A stretch of 64,000 bases of DNA from an uncultured Coriobacteriaceae bacterium (GTDB taxonomy: Bacteria > Actinomycetota > Coriobacteriia > Coriobacteriales > Coriobacteriaceae), in contig CALUIM010000001.1 in the NCBI GenBank assembly GCA_944320725.1, forward strand, positions 62,001 to 126,000. The letters are read 5' to 3'. Shown piece by piece: positions 15,161-47,483 of the stretch. A program made the position numbers and the translations under genes. Under the pieces are notes generated by a model, which ran no database searches, was not told the DNA's origin, and saw nothing but the letters and a program-made list of their open reading frames with translations. Each line of letters begins with the position of its first letter. The first letter of the stretch is position 1.

Positions 15161-16291
15161 ATGGAACAGTATCTTGGCCAGAACACGCCCAAACTCGGCT
15201 TCGGCCTGATGCGCCTACCCAAGCTCGACGACGGATCGACCGATATCGAGCAGGTCAAGGAGATGGTCGACCGGTTCCTAGCGGCGGGCTTCACCTATTT
15301 TGATACCGCCTATGTCTATGACGGCGGCATGAACGAGCGTGTGGCAAAAGAGGCGTTGGTGGACCGGCATCCGCGTGACAGCTATACGCTCGCCACCAAG
15401 CTCTGCGCGTGGGCGGAAGCACCTGATGCCGATGCGGCGCGACAGCAGTTCTACACGAGCCTGGAGCGCACGGGCGCCGGCTATTTTGATTACTACCTGC
15501 TGCATTCGATTCAGACGGGTAACTACAAGCTCTACGACGAGTACGGTATCTGGGACTTTGTCGCGGGCCTGAAAGAGCAGGGGCTCGTGCGGCACTGGGG
15601 GTTCTCGTTCCACGCCACGCCCGAGCTCCTCGACGAGCTGCTGACAAAGCACCCCGAGGTCGACTTCGTGCAGCTGCAGCTCAACTACGCCGACTGGGAG
15701 AATCCCGATGTCACCTCGCGCGCCAACTACGAAGTTGCCCGCGCGCACAACAAGCCGATTGTCATCATGGAGCCGGTCAAGGGCGGGCGTCTTGCCACGC
15801 CACCTGCTGCGGCCCAGGATATCTTGCGCGCGGCACATCCAGATGCCTCGTTCGCTTCGTGGGCAATTCGCTACGCCGCCTCCCTCGACGGCATCATCAC
15901 CGTCCTGTCTGGCATGTCCAATCTCGAACAGCTTGAGGACAACATGTCGTTCATGCGCTCCTTCAGGCCACTCGAAGCCTGGGAGTATGACGCCATCGAG
16001 CAGGCGCGCCGTGCAATTGAGCAGGTTGAGTCGATCCCCTGTACGGCCTGCCGGTACTGCACCGCGGGATGCCCGCAGCACATCCCCATCCCCGCGATTT
16101 TCGCGGCACGCAACGAGCAGCTCATCTGGGGCGCCGACGAGCGCGGCAAGCGCGACTACGAGCGCGCCGTCTCGGCCGAGGGGGCAGGTCGCGCCTCGGC
16201 GTGCATTGCCTGCGGCCAGTGCGAAGGGGCCTGTCCGCAAAACCTTCCCATCATCGACCTGCTCGCATCGTGTGCCGAGGCGCTTGAATAA
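15161..16291 (+). CDS. Aldo/keto reductase with C-terminal iron-sulfur clusters
   Basis: A 376-residue protein. Residues 1 to about 280 are an aldo/keto reductase barrel with GFGLMRLP, FDTAYVYDGGMNE (Asp and Tyr of the catalytic tetrad), LATKLCAWAEA (Lys) and YYLLHSIQ. The C-terminal quarter has two ferredoxin-like motifs: CTACRYCTAGCPQHIPIP and CIACGQCEGACPQNLPI. This is the family often annotated as ferredoxin-type oxidoreductase of the AKR superfamily and common in anaerobes; the substrate is unknown. The ATG follows GGAGGGGAGCCCT. The open frame begins upstream, but that ATG has the only good ribosome binding site. Confidence 0.9.
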   Translation: MEQYLGQNTPKLGFGLMRLPKLDDGSTDIEQVKEMVDRFLAAGFTYFDTAYVYDGGMNERVAKEALVDRHPRDSYTLATKLCAWAEAPDADAARQQFYTSLERTGAGYFDYYLLHSIQTGNYKLYDEYGIWDFVAGLKEQGLVRHWGFSFHATPELLDELLTKHPEVDFVQLQLNYADWENPDVTSRANYEVARAHNKPIVIMEPVKGGRLATPPAAAQDILRAAHPDASFASWAIRYAASLDGIITVLSGMSNLEQLEDNMSFMRSFRPLEAWEYDAIEQARRAIEQVESIPCTACRYCTAGCPQHIPIPAIFAARNEQLIWGADERGKRDYERAVSAEGAGRASACIACGQCEGACPQNLPIIDLLASCAEALE

Positions 16292-16330
16292 CACCGCCGG
16301 CATGCACAGCACACGCTACGTGACACATGG

Positions 16331-16353
16331 TGCCCCGGGTGCGCCCCGGGGCA
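16331..16353. terminator. Hairpin between convergent genes
   Basis: Perfect 9-bp stem TGCCCCGGG / CCCGGGGCA with a 5-base loop, lying between the stop codons of the aldo/keto reductase (plus) and the orphan gene at 16355 (minus). No T-run, so bidirectional termination is tentative. Confidence 0.5.
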
Positions 16354-16354
16354 T

Positions 16355-16804
16355 CTAACTGCAGCGCCGCATGCCGCCCAATGCGCGCTCGACCTCTTGC
16401 TCTGTTGGGATAACGCGAAGATAGCTCGGTGAAAAAGGCGTGGCGGGCGGCGGCACGACACGGCATATCGCGCCGGATTCTCCACGATAGATGAGCATGC
16501 CTGCCGTGGGTCCATCGTCTGGAGCCGCATAGCGCGCGTCAAACCGAGCGACCGCATCTCGAAGCTCCACGATGTCCCCACGGCGCTCGGGATGCGCGGC
16601 GATGCGCACCAGCACGTAAAAGCGATACCGCACATGGTAGAACACCACATCGCACTCGCAGGGCCCGCTCTCGCTTGCATGCCCTGCGTCTACGAGCGCA
16701 AATCCGCGGCGCAACCCCTGCATAAGGCCCTGAACGCGTGTTACAACCGTACCCGCACCCTCATATACCAATACCTCACCTAACGTCTCGGCCACTGCAA
16801 CCAC
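16355..16804 (-). CDS. Hypothetical protein of about 149 residues behind a possible SOS box
   Basis: I do not recognise this protein. It has no membrane segment or signal peptide. It contains an aromatic beta-like stretch (DVVFYHVRYRFYVLVRIAAH, about residues 52-71) and an Arg/Glu-rich C-terminus. The frame is consistent with the high-GC codon use of the neighbours. The start is uncertain: a GTG at 16802-16804 sits very close to an AGGGGCG, and a second GTG at 16793-16795 is better spaced. A LexA-type palindrome lies 55 bases upstream (16859-16872) next to a possible -10 (TATAGT, 16845-16850). DNA-damage control is therefore possible but unproven. Confidence 0.6.
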   Translation of the reverse strand: MVAVAETLGEVLVYEGAGTVVTRVQGLMQGLRRGFALVDAGHASESGPCECDVVFYHVRYRFYVLVRIAAHPERRGDIVELRDAVARFDARYAAPDDGPTAGMLIYRGESGAICRVVPPPATPFSPSYLRVIPTEQEVERALGGMRRCS

Positions 16805-24057: not shown

Positions 24058-24225
24058 CAAGTATCATATGGGGTTAGGCAATTTTAATTGAACTTTATGG
24101 CGCAAGCACCAGATAAGCAACTTGCTCGTATTTGCCATAAGTGCTGTACCTGCGGAAATAAGAACGGGAGAAAACGGCATCTCGCAACTCCCGAAGGAAA
24201 ATTGCCTAACCCCATATGATACTTG
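24058..24225. repeat. 168-bp element with perfect 28-bp terminal inverted repeats
   Basis: The ends 24058-24085 and 24198-24225 (starting CAAGTATCATATGGGG) are perfect reverse complements over 28 bases, with 112 bases between. The interior has no open frame and no similarity that I can see to the elements at 33950 and 46046. No clear target-site duplication flanks it. The spacing is too long for a normal terminator, so a MITE-like element or a structured RNA is more likely. It lies in the 364-base gap between the response regulator (upstream side) and the initiator tRNA; the rest of that gap shows nothing. Confidence 0.75.
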
Positions 24226-24297: not shown

Positions 24298-24374
24298 TGG
24301 TCGCGGGGGCAGGATTTGAACCTACGACCTCCGGGTTATGAGCCCGGCGAGCTACCAGACTGCTCCACCCCGCA
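24298..24374 (-). tRNA. Initiator tRNA-fMet (CAT)
   Basis: A 77-base cloverleaf with encoded CCA (24298-24300), anticodon CAT in the loop CTCATAA, and T-loop TTCAAAT. The anticodon stem has three consecutive G:C pairs (CGGG/CCCG), and the acceptor begins with U1 opposite G72 instead of a Watson-Crick pair. Both are initiator features; E. coli tRNA-fMet has C1 and A72 at those positions. Very similar to E. coli tRNA-fMet along its length. A 32-base part of it recurs inside ccmC. Confidence 0.95.
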
Positions 24375-31993: not shown

Positions 31994-33709
31994 TTACAGC
32001 GAGCCCAGCTCTCCCACGATATGGCCCACGCGATCCTCTGGCTCGAGCACGTTCAGGCCTTCATAGCGGAAGAAGCGTGCCGGGTCGTGCATGAGGTCTT
32101 CAAGCGGCACGAGCACAAAGTCGCGTTCACCGAGCTTGGGATGCGGCAGACGCAGCTTGTTGCCACCATGGATCTCGCCATCCATCCACAACAGGTCGCA
32201 GTCGATCACGCGCGGCCCGTTGGCCTTGGCGCTCTTGGTGCGGTTGCGGCCCAGGCGGTTTTCGACGGCGAGCAGCTCGTCGAGCAACACAAGCGGAGCC
32301 AGCTCGGTTTTAATTTCGATCACAGCGTTGGCGAAGGCGTCCTGCCGCAGCTCGTAGGCGGGCTCGCTCTCGTAGATGCGTGAGCAGGACGACACGCAGG
32401 TAAGCGGAATCTCGGCAATGAGGTCGCGCGCAGCGCGGATGTTGTCCAGACGCTTGCCCATATTCGAGCCGAGTGCCACGAACGCGCGGCGCGGCTGCGG
32501 GCGCGCAACGGCCCAGTAGCCATTCAGGAACTGCGCGAACCCGGCGACATCGTGCACGCGCACGATGTTCGCGCCGTGCTCGATGGCCCCTAGGCACACG
32601 CCGAAGGTCGCGGCATCGCGCGCCGCGGGATCCTCGACACCCGAAACCGTGCCCACGAAGCGCTTACGCGACACGGCGCACACGAGCGGATAGCCCAGCG
32701 ACGCCATCTTGGCGGTCTCGCGCTGGATAATAACGTCCTCATTGGCCGACTTGCCAAAACCCGCGCCCGGATCGATGCAGATGCGATCGCGCTCGACGCC
32801 TGCGTGAATGAGCGAGCGAGCCTGATCGGAGAGGAAGCCCATGACGCGCCGCATGATAGGCGCAGAATCGGGCAAGGTGAAACGACGAAGCTGCGAGGTG
32901 CTCACATACGCACCCTCGCGCTTGTTCGCGCGGCGCATGATGGCAGCGAGCTCGTCGTTGGTGGGGATGGTGTCGGCGCTCGTTGCCTGGGACTCGTCGG
33001 GCGCTGGGGTCGCGACGGCGTTCTTGGCCTCTTGCTCGGCCTTCTCTGCCTCTGCCTCCGGCGCATCGGAGCCATTCGGGACATCGGCAAAAGGCAAGGC
33101 AGGCTGCACCACGCCGCCGGCGAGCTTGCGCTCTCCCAACAAGTTGCTGCGACCAAGCCGGCCGCTGCGCGCCTTGCCTGCCGCCTCCTCGCGCGCACGC
33201 TCCGCCACGAACGCCGCAGCAGAAGTATCGAGCTGCACCGCGGTGTGCGCACGCGCGGGCTCGGTCAGCTCGCCCGCGTGCATGATGATTACGCCGCAGT
33301 TGTTACTCTTCACGAACTCCACCATCTTGGGATCGGTGAAGCCGGTGACATCGTTCACAATCGAGGCGCCCACGCGAACCGCCGCTTTTGCCACCTCGAC
33401 ATGGCGCGTGTCGATCGAGACCACCGCGCCGTGCTGCGCGAGCGCGCGCACCACAGGCAGCACGCGCTTGGCTTCTTCGTCGGCAGAAACCGGCGTGAAC
33501 CCGGGGCGCGTGGACTCGCCACCCACGTCGATGATATCGGCGCCGGCATCGAGCATGGCAAGACCGTGCTCGATCGCGTCATCCGGATCGAAGTTCTTGC
33601 CGCCGTCGCTAAACGAGTCGGGCGTGATGTTGAGCACGCCCATGATGCGCGGACGATCGAACGTGAGCGTATGCTTTCCGCAGCGCCAAGTCTTGGTATC
33701 GTGAGCCAT
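31994..33709 (-). CDS. folP-folK: Fused dihydropteroate synthase and HPPK, FolP-FolK, with a long loop insertion
   Basis: Two steps of folate synthesis in one 571-residue chain. Residues 20-400 are dihydropteroate synthase: IMGVLNITPDSFSDGG, GGESTRPGF, DTRHVEVAKAA, VNDVTG, DPGAGFGKS and SRKRFVG. Between IIMHAGE (142-148) and MGFLSDQARSLIHAG (290-304) lie about 135 residues, mostly low-complexity Ala/Glu/Ser, where usual enzymes have about 20. Residues 408-571 are the pyrophosphokinase with VALGSNMGKR, YESEP and RTKSAKANGPRVIDCDLL. Start at the ATG 33707-33709; an ATG two codons upstream directly abuts its AGG. In many bacteria folK follows folP as a separate gene. Confidence 0.93.
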   Translation of the reverse strand: MAHDTKTWRCGKHTLTFDRPRIMGVLNITPDSFSDGGKNFDPDDAIEHGLAMLDAGADIIDVGGESTRPGFTPVSADEEAKRVLPVVRALAQHGAVVSIDTRHVEVAKAAVRVGASIVNDVTGFTDPKMVEFVKSNNCGVIIMHAGELTEPARAHTAVQLDTSAAAFVAERAREEAAGKARSGRLGRSNLLGERKLAGGVVQPALPFADVPNGSDAPEAEAEKAEQEAKNAVATPAPDESQATSADTIPTNDELAAIMRRANKREGAYVSTSQLRRFTLPDSAPIMRRVMGFLSDQARSLIHAGVERDRICIDPGAGFGKSANEDVIIQRETAKMASLGYPLVCAVSRKRFVGTVSGVEDPAARDAATFGVCLGAIEHGANIVRVHDVAGFAQFLNGYWAVARPQPRRAFVALGSNMGKRLDNIRAARDLIAEIPLTCVSSCSRIYESEPAYELRQDAFANAVIEIKTELAPLVLLDELLAVENRLGRNRTKSAKANGPRVIDCDLLWMDGEIHGGNKLRLPHPKLGERDFVLVPLEDLMHDPARFFRYEGLNVLEPEDRVGHIVGELGSL

Positions 33710-33949
33710 GTGCATCCTATCCTTATGTCAGACGACGATTACGTGCGAGCGCACGCGCCCGCACGGTGAGCACCGCGTTGCGGTGCTCGCGCAATCGCCA
33801 GCCTCAAGCATTCGTTCTCTTATTGTATCCAGATACCCCGTGCACGCGCTCGCGCCCGCGCGACATCGCAGGAAATCAAGAGCCGCAGCCAAGCGAACGC
33901 TTCTCGCAGCACTTCACCTCAACTTTTTTCTCCCAAGCGAGGTCATTTA

Positions 33950-34151
33950 TGTCATTTAGTTCAGATTCCGGAGTAAATGAAGGGGTTTGAGCAAACAAAA
34001 ACGGTCATGGGCTCCCAGCTAATGAGATGCGCTCTCAATAAACAACGTATGTGCCCATATTTTATAGTCACATACGTTGTTTATTGTGCTCCAACCCATT
34101 TGAAGCCGCACCGCTTCCGGCTCATTCCTCCGGAATCTGAACTAAATGACA
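33950..34151. repeat. 202-bp element with perfect 24-bp terminal inverted repeats (copy 1)
   Basis: Ends 33950-33973 and 34128-34151 (TGTCATTTAGTTCAG...) are perfect reverse complements, identical to the ends of the element at 46046. The interior contains a second perfect 18-bp inverted repeat, 34036-34053 with 34069-34086, around an AT-rich loop. No open frame and no transposase. No target-site duplication is evident. It lies in the 484-base gap between the sirtuin gene (3' side) and folP-folK (5' side); the remaining 240 bases before folP hold nothing I can identify. Confidence 0.85.
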
Positions 34152-34193
34152 CCGACGGGCCGGTTTTCAAGAAAAAGTACGTAACGCCGCTCG

Positions 34194-34949
34194 CTAGAAC
34201 GAAAACGCTTGGGCGATATCGCAAGAAATCAGGAGATCGGCGCGCGTATCCTGCGGCGTGGGGTCGCGATTGATGATGACAAGCCGATCGCCTTGGAAAT
34301 ACTGGGTGAGCCCCGCCGCCGGATACACCACGAGTGACGTGCCGCCAATAATGAGCGCGTCCGCCTGGGCAATGGCTTCAACCGCGCCCATGAGAACCTC
34401 CTCGTTGAGCGGCTCCTCGTAGAGCACCACATCGGGTTTGACGGTGCCGCCGCATGCCGGGCATGCGGGCACGCCGCGACCGTTTTCGTGCTCGCGGGCA
34501 AGAATCCAGCTCGCATCGTAGGTCGCACCGCAGCGCTGGCAGATATTGCGGTGCACCGAACCATGGAGCTCGAAGACTCGCTTGCTTCCCGCCATCTGAT
34601 GCAGCCCGTCGATATTCTGCGTAACAACTGCGTCCAGCTTGCCGGCATGTTCAAGCTCGGCGAGCTTCTTATGGCACTGATTGGGCTGCGCGTTGGGCGC
34701 TATCATGCGCTCACGGTAAAATGCGTAGAACTCAGCCGGATGGGCCTCATAGAACGAATGGGAGAGCATCACCTCGGGCGGATAGTCGAAATGCTGATGG
34801 TACAAGCCATCGACGCTCCGAAAATCAGGGATGCCGCTTGCTGTAGAAACACCCGCGCCACCGAAAAACACGACACGATCATGCGAGTCGAACAATTGGG
34901 CAAGCTCGTTTGCCGCCTCACGCGGATTGCTGATTCCCTGTCCCGCCAT
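34194..34949 (-). CDS. NAD-dependent protein deacylase, Sir2 family (CobB-like)
   Basis: Removes acyl groups from lysines, using NAD. The 251-residue protein has GAGVSTASGIPDFRS, TQNIDGLH, the catalytic His in LHGSVH and the zinc site CQRCG...CPACGG. GTSLVVYPAAGL closes the NAD site. At the acyl pocket the Tyr/Arg pair of desuccinylase sirtuins is not obvious to me, so deacetylase is the default. The ATG at 34947-34949 sits behind GAGGGGGCTAGT; the upstream extension of the frame is not needed. Monocistronic between thiE and the inverted-repeat element. Confidence 0.93.
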   Translation of the reverse strand: MAGQGISNPREAANELAQLFDSHDRVVFFGGAGVSTASGIPDFRSVDGLYHQHFDYPPEVMLSHSFYEAHPAEFYAFYRERMIAPNAQPNQCHKKLAELEHAGKLDAVVTQNIDGLHQMAGSKRVFELHGSVHRNICQRCGATYDASWILAREHENGRGVPACPACGGTVKPDVVLYEEPLNEEVLMGAVEAIAQADALIIGGTSLVVYPAAGLTQYFQGDRLVIINRDPTPQDTRADLLISCDIAQAFSF

Positions 34950-35067
34950 ACTAGCCCCCTCAGTCACACAGTAGCCCTTGTGGCAATAATGCCCGCCGCC
35001 ATGCCCCAGACCCAAGGTGCGCCCATACAGAACCAGCCCTTAAAGGAATGAGGCACGGCGGCGTGCG

Positions 35068-36978: not shown

Positions 36979-37132
36979 AAAACGGCGCCGCCTACCGCGG
37001 GTACATCCCGCGTCTGTCAGCAGCGCCGGTATCGTGCGAGCATGCTCCCTACGACAGTGTTAACTGACAGGTTCGAAGGGTTGGGCACATGCCCTCTCAA
37101 CCACGCGCCGGTCGGCGCGCAGTACCCCTGCA
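36979..37132 (-). promoter_or_regulatory. TPP riboswitch with terminator, upstream of thiM
   Basis: On the minus strand the aptamer runs from about 37132 to 37042: GGGGTAC, then TGGTTGAGAGG, AACCCTTCGAACCTG, and GTCGTAGGGAGC. These are the conserved TPP (thi-box) elements in the usual order. Downstream, 37029-36979 forms a long stem (CGCGGG/CCCGCG inside GGCGC/GGCGCC) ending in GTTTTG, a terminator that would form when thiamine pyrophosphate is bound. It therefore switches off thiM, the binding protein and thiE when TPP is plentiful. Confidence 0.93.
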
Positions 37133-37263
37133 TCGCGTGTCATTGTAGCACGCGGTGCGGCGTGCAGCTTGTGGTGGGCACACCGTGTTGCCAAACGGTT
37201 CCAAAGAATCGAGTAGGATAGACAGCAGCGGCCTATACCGCACCCGTCGACCAAGGAGCCGAG

Positions 37264-43494: not shown

Positions 43495-44889
43495 ATGGAC
43501 GCAACCGCTATCATCCTCGCCGCTGGCGAGGGTACCCGTATGAAGTCCAACCATGCCAAAGTCTCACACAAGATACTCGGAAAGCCCATGATCGAATGGG
43601 TGGTCGACGCTGCCGTCGCTGGCGGATGCAACCGGATCATCGTGGTGGTGGGCAGCCATGCCGATGAGGTTCGCGCTATCGTGGAGGGCTCCCGCAGCGC
43701 GAGCGTGGCGCGCGTTGAGTGCGTCGAACAGACCGAGCGCCTGGGGACCGGCCATGCGGTGAAAGTCGCCCTCGAGGCGTGCGCCATCACCGAGGGACCG
43801 GTCGTGGTGCTGAACGGCGATTTGCCGCTCATCCAAGGCGAGACCATCCGTCTGTTTGCCGAATCGGTCGCAGACGGCGCTTACGCTGCCACGATTTTTA
43901 CCACCACGCCGCCCGATCCGTTCGGGTATGGCCGCGTGCAGCTTGGTGCAGACGGCACGGTTGAACGCGTTATCGAGCAGAAGGATTGCACCGCAGAACA
44001 GGCCGCAACCCTGCTGGAGTGCAACGCGGGCTGCTACGCCTTCGACGGCGCGGCGCTGGCCGAGCACATCGACGAGATTGGCTGCGACAACGCGCAGCAC
44101 GAGTACTACCTGCCCGACATGGTTGAGATCTTGAAGCGTGCCGGCAAGGGCGTCTCGATCTTCCACTGTGACGATTACACCGAGGGCCTCGGCATCAACA
44201 GCCGCGCCCAGCTCGCACAACTCACCGCCGTCGCACGTGACCGCATTAACGAGCGCTTCATGGCGGAAGGCGTAACGTTCATCGAGCCGACGCTCGCGTG
44301 GATCTCGCCTGACGCCCAGATTGGCCGCGACACCGTGATCTGGCCGCTCACCATCATGGAAGGCGCCTGCGTCATTGGCGAGGGATGCTCGGTTGGCCCC
44401 AACACGCGCCTTACGCACGTGCGCTGCGGCAACGGATGCTCTCTCGATGAGACCGTCGCCATCGATGCGGTGCTCGAAAACGACATCTCATGCGGCCCGC
44501 GCGCCTACCTGCGTCCCGGCACGCACGTGCTCGACGGCGCCCACGTGGGCACCCATGTCGAGATCAAGAAATCGACCATCGGCGAAGGGTCGAAGGTCCC
44601 GCACCTCTCGTACATCGGCGACACCACCATGGGCGCCGGCGTGAACATTGGAGCAGGGTCTATCACCTGCAACTACGATGGTGTGAATAAGAATCCCACC
44701 ACCATTGGCGACAACACGTTCATCGGCTCCGACACCATGATGGTCGCGCCGGTGAATATTGGCTCGAATGCGGTCACTGGTGCATCGAGCTGCATTACGA
44801 AGGATGTTCCCGACGGGGCACTCGCCATCGAGCGCTCTGAACAGCGCATCATAGCAGGCTATTCCGAGCGTAAGCGCGCTCGCAAGTAG
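43495..44889 (+). CDS. glmU: Bifunctional GlcNAc-1-P uridyltransferase / GlcN-1-P acetyltransferase
   Basis: Makes UDP-GlcNAc for cell-wall synthesis. The N-terminal pyrophosphorylase has LAAGEGTRMKS, QTERLGTGHAV, LNGDLPLI and EYYLPD. The C-terminal half is a left-handed beta-helix with hexapeptide repeats, ending in GAGSITCNYDGVNKNPTTIGDN (acetyl-CoA/acetyltransferase site). 464 residues, normal. The ATG follows GGGGAGA. Neighbour of prs as in many bacteria. Confidence 0.97.
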   Translation: MDATAIILAAGEGTRMKSNHAKVSHKILGKPMIEWVVDAAVAGGCNRIIVVVGSHADEVRAIVEGSRSASVARVECVEQTERLGTGHAVKVALEACAITEGPVVVLNGDLPLIQGETIRLFAESVADGAYAATIFTTTPPDPFGYGRVQLGADGTVERVIEQKDCTAEQAATLLECNAGCYAFDGAALAEHIDEIGCDNAQHEYYLPDMVEILKRAGKGVSIFHCDDYTEGLGINSRAQLAQLTAVARDRINERFMAEGVTFIEPTLAWISPDAQIGRDTVIWPLTIMEGACVIGEGCSVGPNTRLTHVRCGNGCSLDETVAIDAVLENDISCGPRAYLRPGTHVLDGAHVGTHVEIKKSTIGEGSKVPHLSYIGDTTMGAGVNIGAGSITCNYDGVNKNPTTIGDNTFIGSDTMMVAPVNIGSNAVTGASSCITKDVPDGALAIERSEQRIIAGYSERKRARK

Positions 44890-44933
44890 TGGAGACACGG
44901 GTACGGCAGTCCAAGACTAAGGAGTATCGGCAA

Positions 44934-45920
44934 ATGCCCACACAGGACAACAAACGAACCCAGCAGATGTACAAGACGCTGCGCCTGTATTCAGGCTCAT
45001 GCAACAGGCCCCTCGCGCAGAAGATCGCAGACATCCTGGGAGTTGAACTCTCGGGCCTTGCCTTAGAGAAGTTTGCGAACGGCGAAATTTACGCGCGCTT
45101 CGATGAATCGGTGCGCGGCGCCGACGTCTTCCTCGTCCAGTCCGTTGCCGGCCCCAGCGTCAACGACATGCTCATGGAGATGCTCGTTGCCACCGACGCC
45201 GCCAAGCGCGCGTCCGCTCGCACCATCACCGCGGTCATCACGCACTACGCTTATGCTCGCCAGGATCGCAAAGCAGCACCGCGCGAGCCCATCACCGCGC
45301 GCCTTGTTGCCAACCTGCTCGAGCGCGCCGGCGTCGATCGCGTCATTACCCTCGATTTGCACCAGGGTCAGATCCAGGGCTTCTTCGACATTCCGGTGAA
45401 CCACCTCTCTGCACTGCCGCTCTTCGGTGAGTACTACAAGCAGAAGGGCTTTGATCCCGCCAACCTCGTGGTTGTCTCCCCCGATGTGGGACGTGCCAAG
45501 GCCGCCAAGCTGCTCTCCGATATGCTTGGTTGCGACCTCGCCATCGCCCACAAGGGCCGTCCGCGCCACAACGCCGCCGAGGTCATGGGCATCATCGGTG
45601 ATATCAAGGGCAAGACCTGCATCATCAATGACGACATGATCGATACCGCCGGAACGCTGTGCGCCGGCGTGCGCGAGCTCAAGAAGCTGGGTGCCGGAGA
45701 TATCTACGTGTGCGCCACGCACGGCATCTTCTCTGGTCCCGCACTCGAGCGCCTGAACAACGCGCCGATTGTTGAGTGCGTGGTCACCGACTCGATCCCC
45801 GTTGTCCCCGAGGGCAAGATCAAGACCATCACCGTGGCAGACGAGTTTGCCAGCGCCATTGAGGCCGTGTACGCAGAGCAGTCCGTTTCCAAGCTCGTAG
45901 GCGGCGATTTTGCACTCTAA
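44934..45920 (+). CDS. prs: Ribose-phosphate pyrophosphokinase
   Basis: Makes PRPP from ribose 5-phosphate and ATP. The 328-residue protein has YSGSCNRPLAQKIAD, FANGEIYARFDESVRG, DLHQGQIQGFFDIPVNHL (the signature), and the PRPP loop NDDMIDTAGTL. ATG 44934 follows TAAGGAGTATCGGCAA; the frame extends 15 codons upstream into the glmU end but that has no ribosome binding site. In many bacteria pth follows; here an orphan gene and an inverted-repeat element intervene. Confidence 0.96.
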   Translation: MPTQDNKRTQQMYKTLRLYSGSCNRPLAQKIADILGVELSGLALEKFANGEIYARFDESVRGADVFLVQSVAGPSVNDMLMEMLVATDAAKRASARTITAVITHYAYARQDRKAAPREPITARLVANLLERAGVDRVITLDLHQGQIQGFFDIPVNHLSALPLFGEYYKQKGFDPANLVVVSPDVGRAKAAKLLSDMLGCDLAIAHKGRPRHNAAEVMGIIGDIKGKTCIINDDMIDTAGTLCAGVRELKKLGAGDIYVCATHGIFSGPALERLNNAPIVECVVTDSIPVVPEGKIKTITVADEFASAIEAVYAEQSVSKLVGGDFAL

Positions 45921-46045: not shown

Positions 46046-46226
46046 TGTCATTTAGTTCAGATTCCGGAGAGATCGGCACGCCCTGCAGGCAAATATCATC
46101 TTCAGTAAGTCGCATTTAAATATATTTTATATATTTAAGCTGCCTTAAATCTCGCCGCGAGCGCGAATGAGCTCGTAATCACCTTTCGCGAGCACGCTAT
46201 TGCTCCGGAATCTGAACTAAATGACA
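46046..46226. repeat. 181-bp element with perfect 24-bp terminal inverted repeats (copy 2)
   Basis: Ends 46046-46069 and 46203-46226 are perfect reverse complements and identical to those of the element at 33950, although the interiors share no visible similarity. Here too the middle contains an AT-rich hairpin (about 46115-46139, TTTAAATATA/TATATTTAAG). No open frame. It lies in the 441-base gap between the prs terminator and the orphan gene at 46362; the 135 bases after it are T-rich and hold no feature I can name. Confidence 0.85.
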
Positions 46227-46361: not shown

Positions 46362-47483
46362 ATGGAAGCGCTGATTGTTTCACATACCACCTCACTTCGC
46401 GGTATTCGCGCCGCACGACGGATGTACGCCGCCGTTCCATGGACCCTGCTTTCTAAAGTCCAACAGAATCGCATCCTAAAATCGTGTCTCATGCCTGCTA
46501 CGACCATTGATTTTGATTTCGTGGAACGCATGGGGTTTTGGGAGAACAGCAGCTTTGAACAGCTCGACATGCTTATTGGCATGGAGTCGCAGCGCCGTCG
46601 CGATTCACGAATTTGCTCTCACCTCATCTCCTCGTTGCCGCCCGGCGCCATCATGCACGTAGCTCACGATCTATATAGCTGTTCCCCTGCGTTTACAGCG
46701 CTCTTATGCTCAAAAGGCAAATCAGTTGGCGAAATCATCCCCTTGTTGATGGAGCTTCTGGGAACCTATACGCTTCCAGAAGAGGCAACGCTTCCCATCT
46801 CCCGAGGAGATGCGTGGCGACGCCATGGCCTTGTTGCTGATCAGCAACCAGACGATCCAACAATGAACAGCGCCGCAGGATCAATGGCGTTACCCGTTCA
46901 GCAAGCTCACTACCATTGCAATCCCGCTGTCACGGTGGAAGAGCTAAAGGCTGTGGCGGCATGGGCGACCAGCTCTCGCTATGCAGCCTTCAGAACGGCT
47001 GTGAAGTATGTCGTCTCAGGCTCAGCATCCCCCGCAGAATCAATCATGTTCGGCATGTTTGCCCTGCCGCAGCGCTACGGCGGCTTTAACATGCTGTCCC
47101 TTCCGAAAGGCGGCATCCTGCTTAACCATCGCGTCGATTTTGATGAACAGGCGCTTCACATGTCCTCGGGCATCCCGTACGCAATTCTTGATGCCTACAT
47201 CCCAGCAGCGAATATGGAGCTCGAGTACAACGGGATTGGCCATGAAGAGGAGGCGGCGCGTATACACGACGGACAGCGCAACAATGGTGTTCGCGGCATG
47301 GGTATAGCAATCATCGTCATTAATCGGGATCAGATGCGCGATGTTGTCGCCCTTGAGGCAATCGCTCGAACAATTTATCGAAGTGCCGGAAAATGCCTTC
47401 GTTATCGGACGGACGGATATAGGAAGCAGCAGCACGCCCTGCTGAATACCCTGCGCAAAGCCATCGGCCTGCCCCCTTGCTAG
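46362..47483 (+). CDS. Orphan protein with a possible endonuclease-like (DUF559/AbiEi-type) C-terminal domain
   Basis: A 373-residue cytoplasmic protein. Near the start, ALIVSHTTSLRGIRAARRMY resembles the N-terminal part of AbiEi-type antitoxin-like proteins of actinobacteria. The C-terminal NMELEYNGIGHEEEAARIHDGQRNNGVRGMGIAIIVINRDQ resembles the PD-(D/E)xK-like DUF559 core (E-x-D/E-Y-x-G-x-x-H...D-x-x-R). Both are pattern impressions, not matches I could compute. The codon use looks less GC-rich than neighbours, suggesting transfer. It interrupts the usual prs-pth order and lies beside a TIR element. The ribosome binding site is weak. No partner toxin gene is adjacent. Confidence 0.7.
   Translation: MEALIVSHTTSLRGIRAARRMYAAVPWTLLSKVQQNRILKSCLMPATTIDFDFVERMGFWENSSFEQLDMLIGMESQRRRDSRICSHLISSLPPGAIMHVAHDLYSCSPAFTALLCSKGKSVGEIIPLLMELLGTYTLPEEATLPISRGDAWRRHGLVADQQPDDPTMNSAAGSMALPVQQAHYHCNPAVTVEELKAVAAWATSSRYAAFRTAVKYVVSGSASPAESIMFGMFALPQRYGGFNMLSLPKGGILLNHRVDFDEQALHMSSGIPYAILDAYIPAANMELEYNGIGHEEEAARIHDGQRNNGVRGMGIAIIVINRDQMRDVVALEAIARTIYRSAGKCLRYRTDGYRKQQHALLNTLRKAIGLPPC

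Follow-up and report, generated by a model that had tools for sequence, protein, structure and literature searches.

The window analysed here, a stretch of 64,000 nucleotides from an uncultured Coriobacteriaceae bacterium, holds two short intergenic elements, E1 and E2, that both run from TGTCATTTAGTTCAGATTCCGGAG to the exact reverse complement of this sequence (Table 1), and the question is what such identical ends are for when they enclose contents that look unrelated. E1 has a folP/folK-like gene (31994-33715, minus strand) on one side and a Sir2 gene (34194-35015, minus strand) on the other, and E2 is flanked by prs (44889-45920, plus strand) and an unassigned gene at 46362-47483 (plus strand); gene calls beside the elements come from a simple ORF method, and ten proteins were compared with Pfam. 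Elsewhere in the window, a TPP riboswitch (Rfam RF00059) was found at 37029-37139 on the minus strand. When the 24-mer was searched with up to three mismatches, four sites were found in the window, all of them E1 or E2 ends, against 0 expected from 100 dinucleotide shuffles. The first-pass annotation of this DNA had described the perfect 24-bp inverted ends, identical in both elements, as well as an 18-bp hairpin in E1 and an AT-rich dyad in E2, and all of these were found again. It had interpreted them as non-autonomous elements mobilised in trans or as sites for a common recombinase, and this interpretation as a whole was partly supported.

Table 1. Elements of the window and their parts, in window positions.
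Feature	Position	Strand	Remarks
Family-1 element E1	33950-34151	.	202 bp; ortholog L068:4945-5146 in G001, also 202 bp
E1 left arm	33950-33973	+	inner 18 bp = 33956-33973, invariant in 38/38 ends
E1 right arm	34128-34151	-	perfect inverted copy of left arm
E1 left outer T-tract	33924-33930	+	about 20-25 bp outside arm
E1 right outer A-tract	34172-34176	-	mirror image of left T-tract
E1 central dyad	34036-34086	.	18-bp perfect hairpin arms; centre 111.5 / 90.5 bp from outer ends
Family-1 element E2	46046-46226	.	181 bp; ortholog L067:4934-5114 in G001, also 181 bp
E2 left arm	46046-46069	+	
E2 right arm	46203-46226	-	
E2 central dyad TTAAATATATTTTATATATTTAA	46116-46138	.	centre 81.5 / 99.5 bp from outer ends
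Family-2 element	24058-24225	.	168 bp; same architecture, other arms; from de novo inverted-pair scan
Family-2 left arm	24058-24085	+	
Family-2 right arm	24198-24225	-	perfect inverted copy
Family-2 central core GTACCTGCGGAAATAAG	24146-24162	+	89.5 bp from left, 68.5 bp from right ATCATATG end

A genome-wide search, which the annotation had proposed, showed that the 24-mer is not confined to the E1/E2 pair. Nine pairs, designated family 1, are present in the genome of origin (G000; 2.07 Mb, 99.5% complete) and ten in a sister species (G001; uncultured Coriobacteriaceae genome, bin44); the comparisons below are between draft or metagenome assemblies and with one sister species. Family-1 pairs were absent from seven other congeners and from 51 further relatives. 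In a 21-mer scan of a genome collection covering 84,980 species, only the sister genome was retrieved together with one Paenibacillus match, an isolated single site that looks like chance. No matching description was found in the literature on Coriobacteriia repeats.

The arms are the most constant part of family 1. Their inner 18 bp, TTAGTTCAGATTCCGGAG, do not vary across the 38 ends, and the idea that they are sites for a common trans-acting protein holds up on this ground. The outer 6 bp are variable, and a change at one end of an element is often matched at its other end. The perfect 24 bp stand as described, but the conserved end is longer: 20-25 bp further out each arm has a T-tract, or more rarely an A-tract, and AATT near -15 and A/T at -5 to -1 also belong to it. 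Two simple functions were considered for these ends and rejected: the polarity of the flanking tracts is wrong for terminators (T before, A after) and no terminator was called, and the spacings in the outer tract, judged by eye, are unsuitable for outward promoters. Most elements contain a central AT-rich dyad around TCTATWWWATAGA, a clear one being missing in about four of eleven loci. In E2, the dyad core is retained in the ortholog and an outer pair shows a double change from T-A to C-G. Housekeeping genes of mixed kinds flank the loci, and their arrangement is tandem, divergent or convergent. One element lies between carA-like and carB-like genes, named from sequence and not by family search, 16-17 bp before the carB start codon (L059:980-1151; L066:4914-5084); it is without the AT-rich dyad and its G-rich interior blocks are conserved.

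E1 and E2 have no obvious sequence in common between their ends, as first reported, but they do have a hidden structure in common, made of quantised length, a phased central dyad and AT phasing at 10.4 bp. Family-1 lengths cluster at 170-172, 180-181, 192-193 and 202-203 bp. Over 11 independent loci a period of 10.8 bp fits with R 0.93, and none of 20,000 random length sets did as well although any period from 9.5 to 12 was allowed to them. The distances from centre to end fall near 80.5, 91, 101 and 112 bp, in steps of one helical turn (period 10.45 bp, R 0.90; again 0/20,000 random sets as good). In the orthologs L064 and L069, the centre has shifted by one turn, from 90.5/101.5 to 80.5/111.5, with the total length still 192. 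AT content is periodic at 10.25-10.5 bp through the outer tract, the arm and the interior of family-1 elements and rises towards the centre; shuffled interiors never reached the observed amplitude (0/1,000 in each species). As in a looping operator pair of the gal or lac type, both sites are spaced by whole turns.

The elements are conserved in place. For eight of the nine G000 loci of family 1, G001 has an ortholog in synteny, and identity of the flanks is mostly 79-92%. The ninth pair, L063/L073, is inferred to be orthologous from an outer flank in common, lengths of 193/193 and an equal centre position. Beside L063, about 7.7 kb including a 1072-aa gene (L284; G000 C13, about 20-28 kb) are absent at the same place of the sister species. 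Among the 288 aligned arm bases of eight ortholog pairs there are 0 substitutions. Ungapped interior identity over the six pairs of equal length is 0.60-0.68 in four, 0.81 in an inverted pair and 0.43 in L064/L069, the pair where the centre has shifted. The interiors are homologous between orthologs (z 8-21), and paralogues within one genome look unrelated. Judged from these alignments, the sites are fixed and purifying selection has acted on their arms and spacing; this is not recent transposition.

The same architecture recurs with other arms. The window itself holds such an element, which the first-pass annotation overlooked and which adjoins a tRNA-Met gene (24298-24374, minus strand). It belongs to family 2, of which G000 has seven copies and G001 two. 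In a further family, family 3, G001 has ten pairs and G000 four, and the spans again lie around 134, 145 and 155 bp. G001 has family 3 at loci orthologous to family 2 of G000. At these loci, the outer ATCATATG and a flanking AAATGNTA motif are common to the two families, whereas the inner 11 bp of both arms read CGAAGTGTGGA in G001 family 3 and GGGTTAGGCAA in G000 family 2. Around the core of the window element the interior is still homologous to that of G001 (z 8.7), and interior homology is weak at the other four swap loci. In 19 elements of families 2 and 3, the distance from the core (ACCT|GCGG) to the right end is 68.5-69.5 bp in nearly all, and that to the left end is about 69, 79.5 or 89.5 bp; two elements with six core mismatches break the phasing, and their core assignment is doubtful. 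A length phasing test on these families, with the length list compiled by hand, gave P 0.0014. Families 2 and 3 lie side by side in G000 C11 / G001 C4, and all three families are represented by one element each within 4 kb in L287:2743-6463 (G000 contig C15), a trio that adjoins a tyrosine recombinase gene (L287:1018-2016). In the family-2 orthologs L186/L234, a G-to-A arm variant (ATCATATGAGG) is on opposite sides in the two species although neither interior nor flanks are reversed; an exchange between arms or two separate mutations would account for this. An IMG/VR search gave no match for arms of family 1 or family 2; family 3 and the GAAGTGAGTGTCTCGT type each had a single unpaired match that looks like chance.

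The reading that we favour, and to which we give about an even chance, is that these elements are static DNA micro-loops bridged by a putative arm-binding protein and mechanically like the gal repressosome. It is favoured because the whole-turn spacing of three points, the phased AT tracts and the inverted arms are what a small loop needs. Each element would be a fixed, vertically inherited site. The putative protein would bind the two inverted arms and bridge them, and this would close the intervening 120-200 bp into one small loop, round which AT tracts every 10.4 bp would curve the DNA. We infer that the central dyad is the apex of the loop, where it may be bound or bent by a second protein, dimeric or architectural, or may simply be flexible. 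The families would differ in arm-binding specificity while keeping the same layout, and specificity at one locus could change between species. Local insulation, nucleoid anchoring and gene control are candidates for the benefit.

Four points speak against the static loop. Most operators are less strictly conserved than the invariant 18 bp. Moreover, the flanking genes are mixed and therefore no regulated target common to the loci is visible. The family-1 loci that lack a clear central dyad, about four of eleven, also count against it. Finally, a purely static loop does not need the inversion observed at one locus (see below). On the other hand, the gal repressosome of E. coli (GalR-HU) offers a close parallel for the presumed bridging, with two sites bridged over about 11 helical turns, whole-turn dependence and an architectural site at the apex (PMC4693257). 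In that system, repression peaks when the operators are 103, 113, 123 or 133 bp apart and disappears at half-turn distances, and HU occupies the loop apex (PMC4693257). The gal operators, however, flank the promoters of one operon, while the present elements are dispersed and repeated in unrelated intergenic places, and their arms are long, not palindromic and swapped between families.

A recombinase could also make use of such arms. It would be one site-specific enzyme acting on arms common to many loci and flipping the segment between them, and the phasing would follow if a short segment synapses only when both sites face the same way. Mpi of Bacteroides fragilis is such a multi-locus invertase; invertons of this type likewise occupy many loci with common inverted repeats and unrelated interiors of 100-200 bp. 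Most predictions of this reading are the same as those of the static loop. One inversion was observed, in L062/L071, where the interior is inverted relative to flanks that are conserved as far as both arms (identity 0.81; z 21 versus 6.5 in the other orientation). It implies at least one recombination event between the two arms of this element after the species separated, and from the aligned sequences rare recombination between arms thus appears to occur. Read by eye, the cores of L192/L214 and L191/L220 also have opposite orientations relative to the flanks, and a median of 14 invertons per genome in the Actinobacteriota of a defined gut community (PMC11892184) was counted in favour as well. 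Nevertheless, in this comparison of assemblies, seven of the eight family-1 ortholog pairs with clear synteny agree in orientation. With one of eight comparable elements inverted, the common recombinase of the first-pass annotation retains some probability. A dedicated serine invertase was rejected, G001 having no serine recombinase; its only two tyrosine recombinases are both strong Phage_integrase matches, as expected of Xer proteins. No recombinase was seen at the window loci. In consensus promoter scans, E2 had no sigma-70-like promoter and E1 had one 9-of-12 match, and the neighbours are housekeeping genes instead of the usual surface genes. To our knowledge, a conserved interior of whole-turn length with a phased centre is no feature of invertons. 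We therefore regard this reading as unlikely.

More doubtful still is the reading as old miniature transposable elements, of MITE or REPIN type, whose ends were recognised by a lost or distant transposase and whose phasing would arise if short elements transpose only in helical phase. Ends in common with different contents would agree with it, as would the intergenic positions, often just after terminators, the confinement of family 1 to two species and a locus without element in G000. The last of these, L074, is the one G001 element without counterpart, but G000 lacks about 370 bp there, more than the element, and shows no duplication. Another locus, L061, is shorter in congeners, with ends too diverged to place; mapping of element loci into the congener G003 met sequences too diverged and little synteny. 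No direct repeats were found at the arm boundary in nine elements, and scattered short ones appeared only at other assumed boundaries. The insertion sequence with these ends that the annotation had suggested looking for was not found in G000 or G001, nor was any larger or autonomous element, every end pairing within about 200 bp. Despite its ten pairs, G001 has no match to the Y1 transposase (PF01797), of which G000 has one, and it lacks serine recombinases as noted above. Paralogue interiors are unrelated, and the homologous loci of the sister species nearly always hold the same element, which comes close to what the annotation had named as refuting its idea. The arms also stay perfect in place while the interiors decay, an outcome that selection for mobility cannot produce in copies that have stopped moving. 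Mobilisation in trans thus finds no support, and the MITE reading is already weak.

Known repeats of this kind differ in similar ways. REPINs and BIMEs (inverted REP pairs, some with an IHF site) also have two inverted conserved sequences around a diverse spacer, as seen here, and are inherited vertically over long times (PMC8049555). They differ from the present elements, in which a single arm does not fold stably in any of families 1-3 and so is not a REP hairpin, no RAYT-type Y1 transposase is found in G001, copies number about ten instead of many and spacing follows whole turns. Correia/NEMIS and other bacterial MITEs have terminal repeats of about 24 bp, measure less than 200 bp and carry an IHF site in the 155-bp form (PMC2229807), but Correia copies are similar throughout and make target duplications, neither of which is seen here. 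The repeated CIR elements of Caulobacter likewise lie between genes, measure about 110 bp, have inverted-repeat arms and are conserved across species (PMC2229807); unlike the present elements, they are highly conserved in sequence, carry GANTC and have no terminal inverted repeats.

A reading as structured RNA genes, in which a transcript would be closed by a stem of the two arms and carry the centre as a hairpin, is very improbable: the single-strand fold of E1 is very stable (z -11.6) and five pair-keeping double changes occur in central hairpins, but distances quantised by the helical turn and an AT phasing of 10.4 bp belong to duplex DNA, the arms are conserved in sequence beyond pairing alone, 20 central pairs are broken between orthologs while shifted registers yield up to three double changes, and no Rfam match was obtained for the window elements and 15 element loci.

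Returning to the static bridged loop, bacterial DNA loops are known mostly operon by operon, and here one loop geometry would be repeated about ten times per family, in several families, within one genome. Selection can be seen at base-pair resolution in arms and spacing, but not in most of the intervening sequence. We tentatively propose, with more doubt than conviction, that these elements represent an undescribed class of dispersed chromosomal micro-loop sites, tripartite, helically phased and outside operons, whose arm specificity is replaced between species at conserved loci and which may serve nucleoid architecture or local insulation via a rapidly changing family of DNA-bridging proteins. 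If real, they would provide a sequence signature for bridged micro-loops findable in any genome, and arm turnover at fixed loci would be a natural record of genome-wide rewiring of DNA-binding specificity. If the elements are invertible instead, multi-locus inversion control would be extended to an unexpected lineage and unexpected neighbours.

Still other arms exist around a similar core. The core consensus TTTWCCTGCGGAAAYG recurs in pairs with different arms in G000 and in G003, about 57% of the former and under 40% of the latter being covered for other families. Core hits had an inverted pair in 27 cases versus 13 at random positions, in a survey that is biased by the choice of fitting cores and in which only strong pairs (15-16/16 arm bases matching) are countable. 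In G003, the inverted pairs at L144:5307-5481 and 16250-16384 have doubled arms, with two copies of ATTGTGTATACCGAAA on each side, and a mostly single-arm version with a CCGCAGGTAG core was found at L148:12074-12228. The G003 sample also contains many REP-like copies of CATTTGGGGACGGG (for example L151:2195-2345 and L173:7413), which probably form a separate REP/RAYT system, Y1 transposases being present in that genome.
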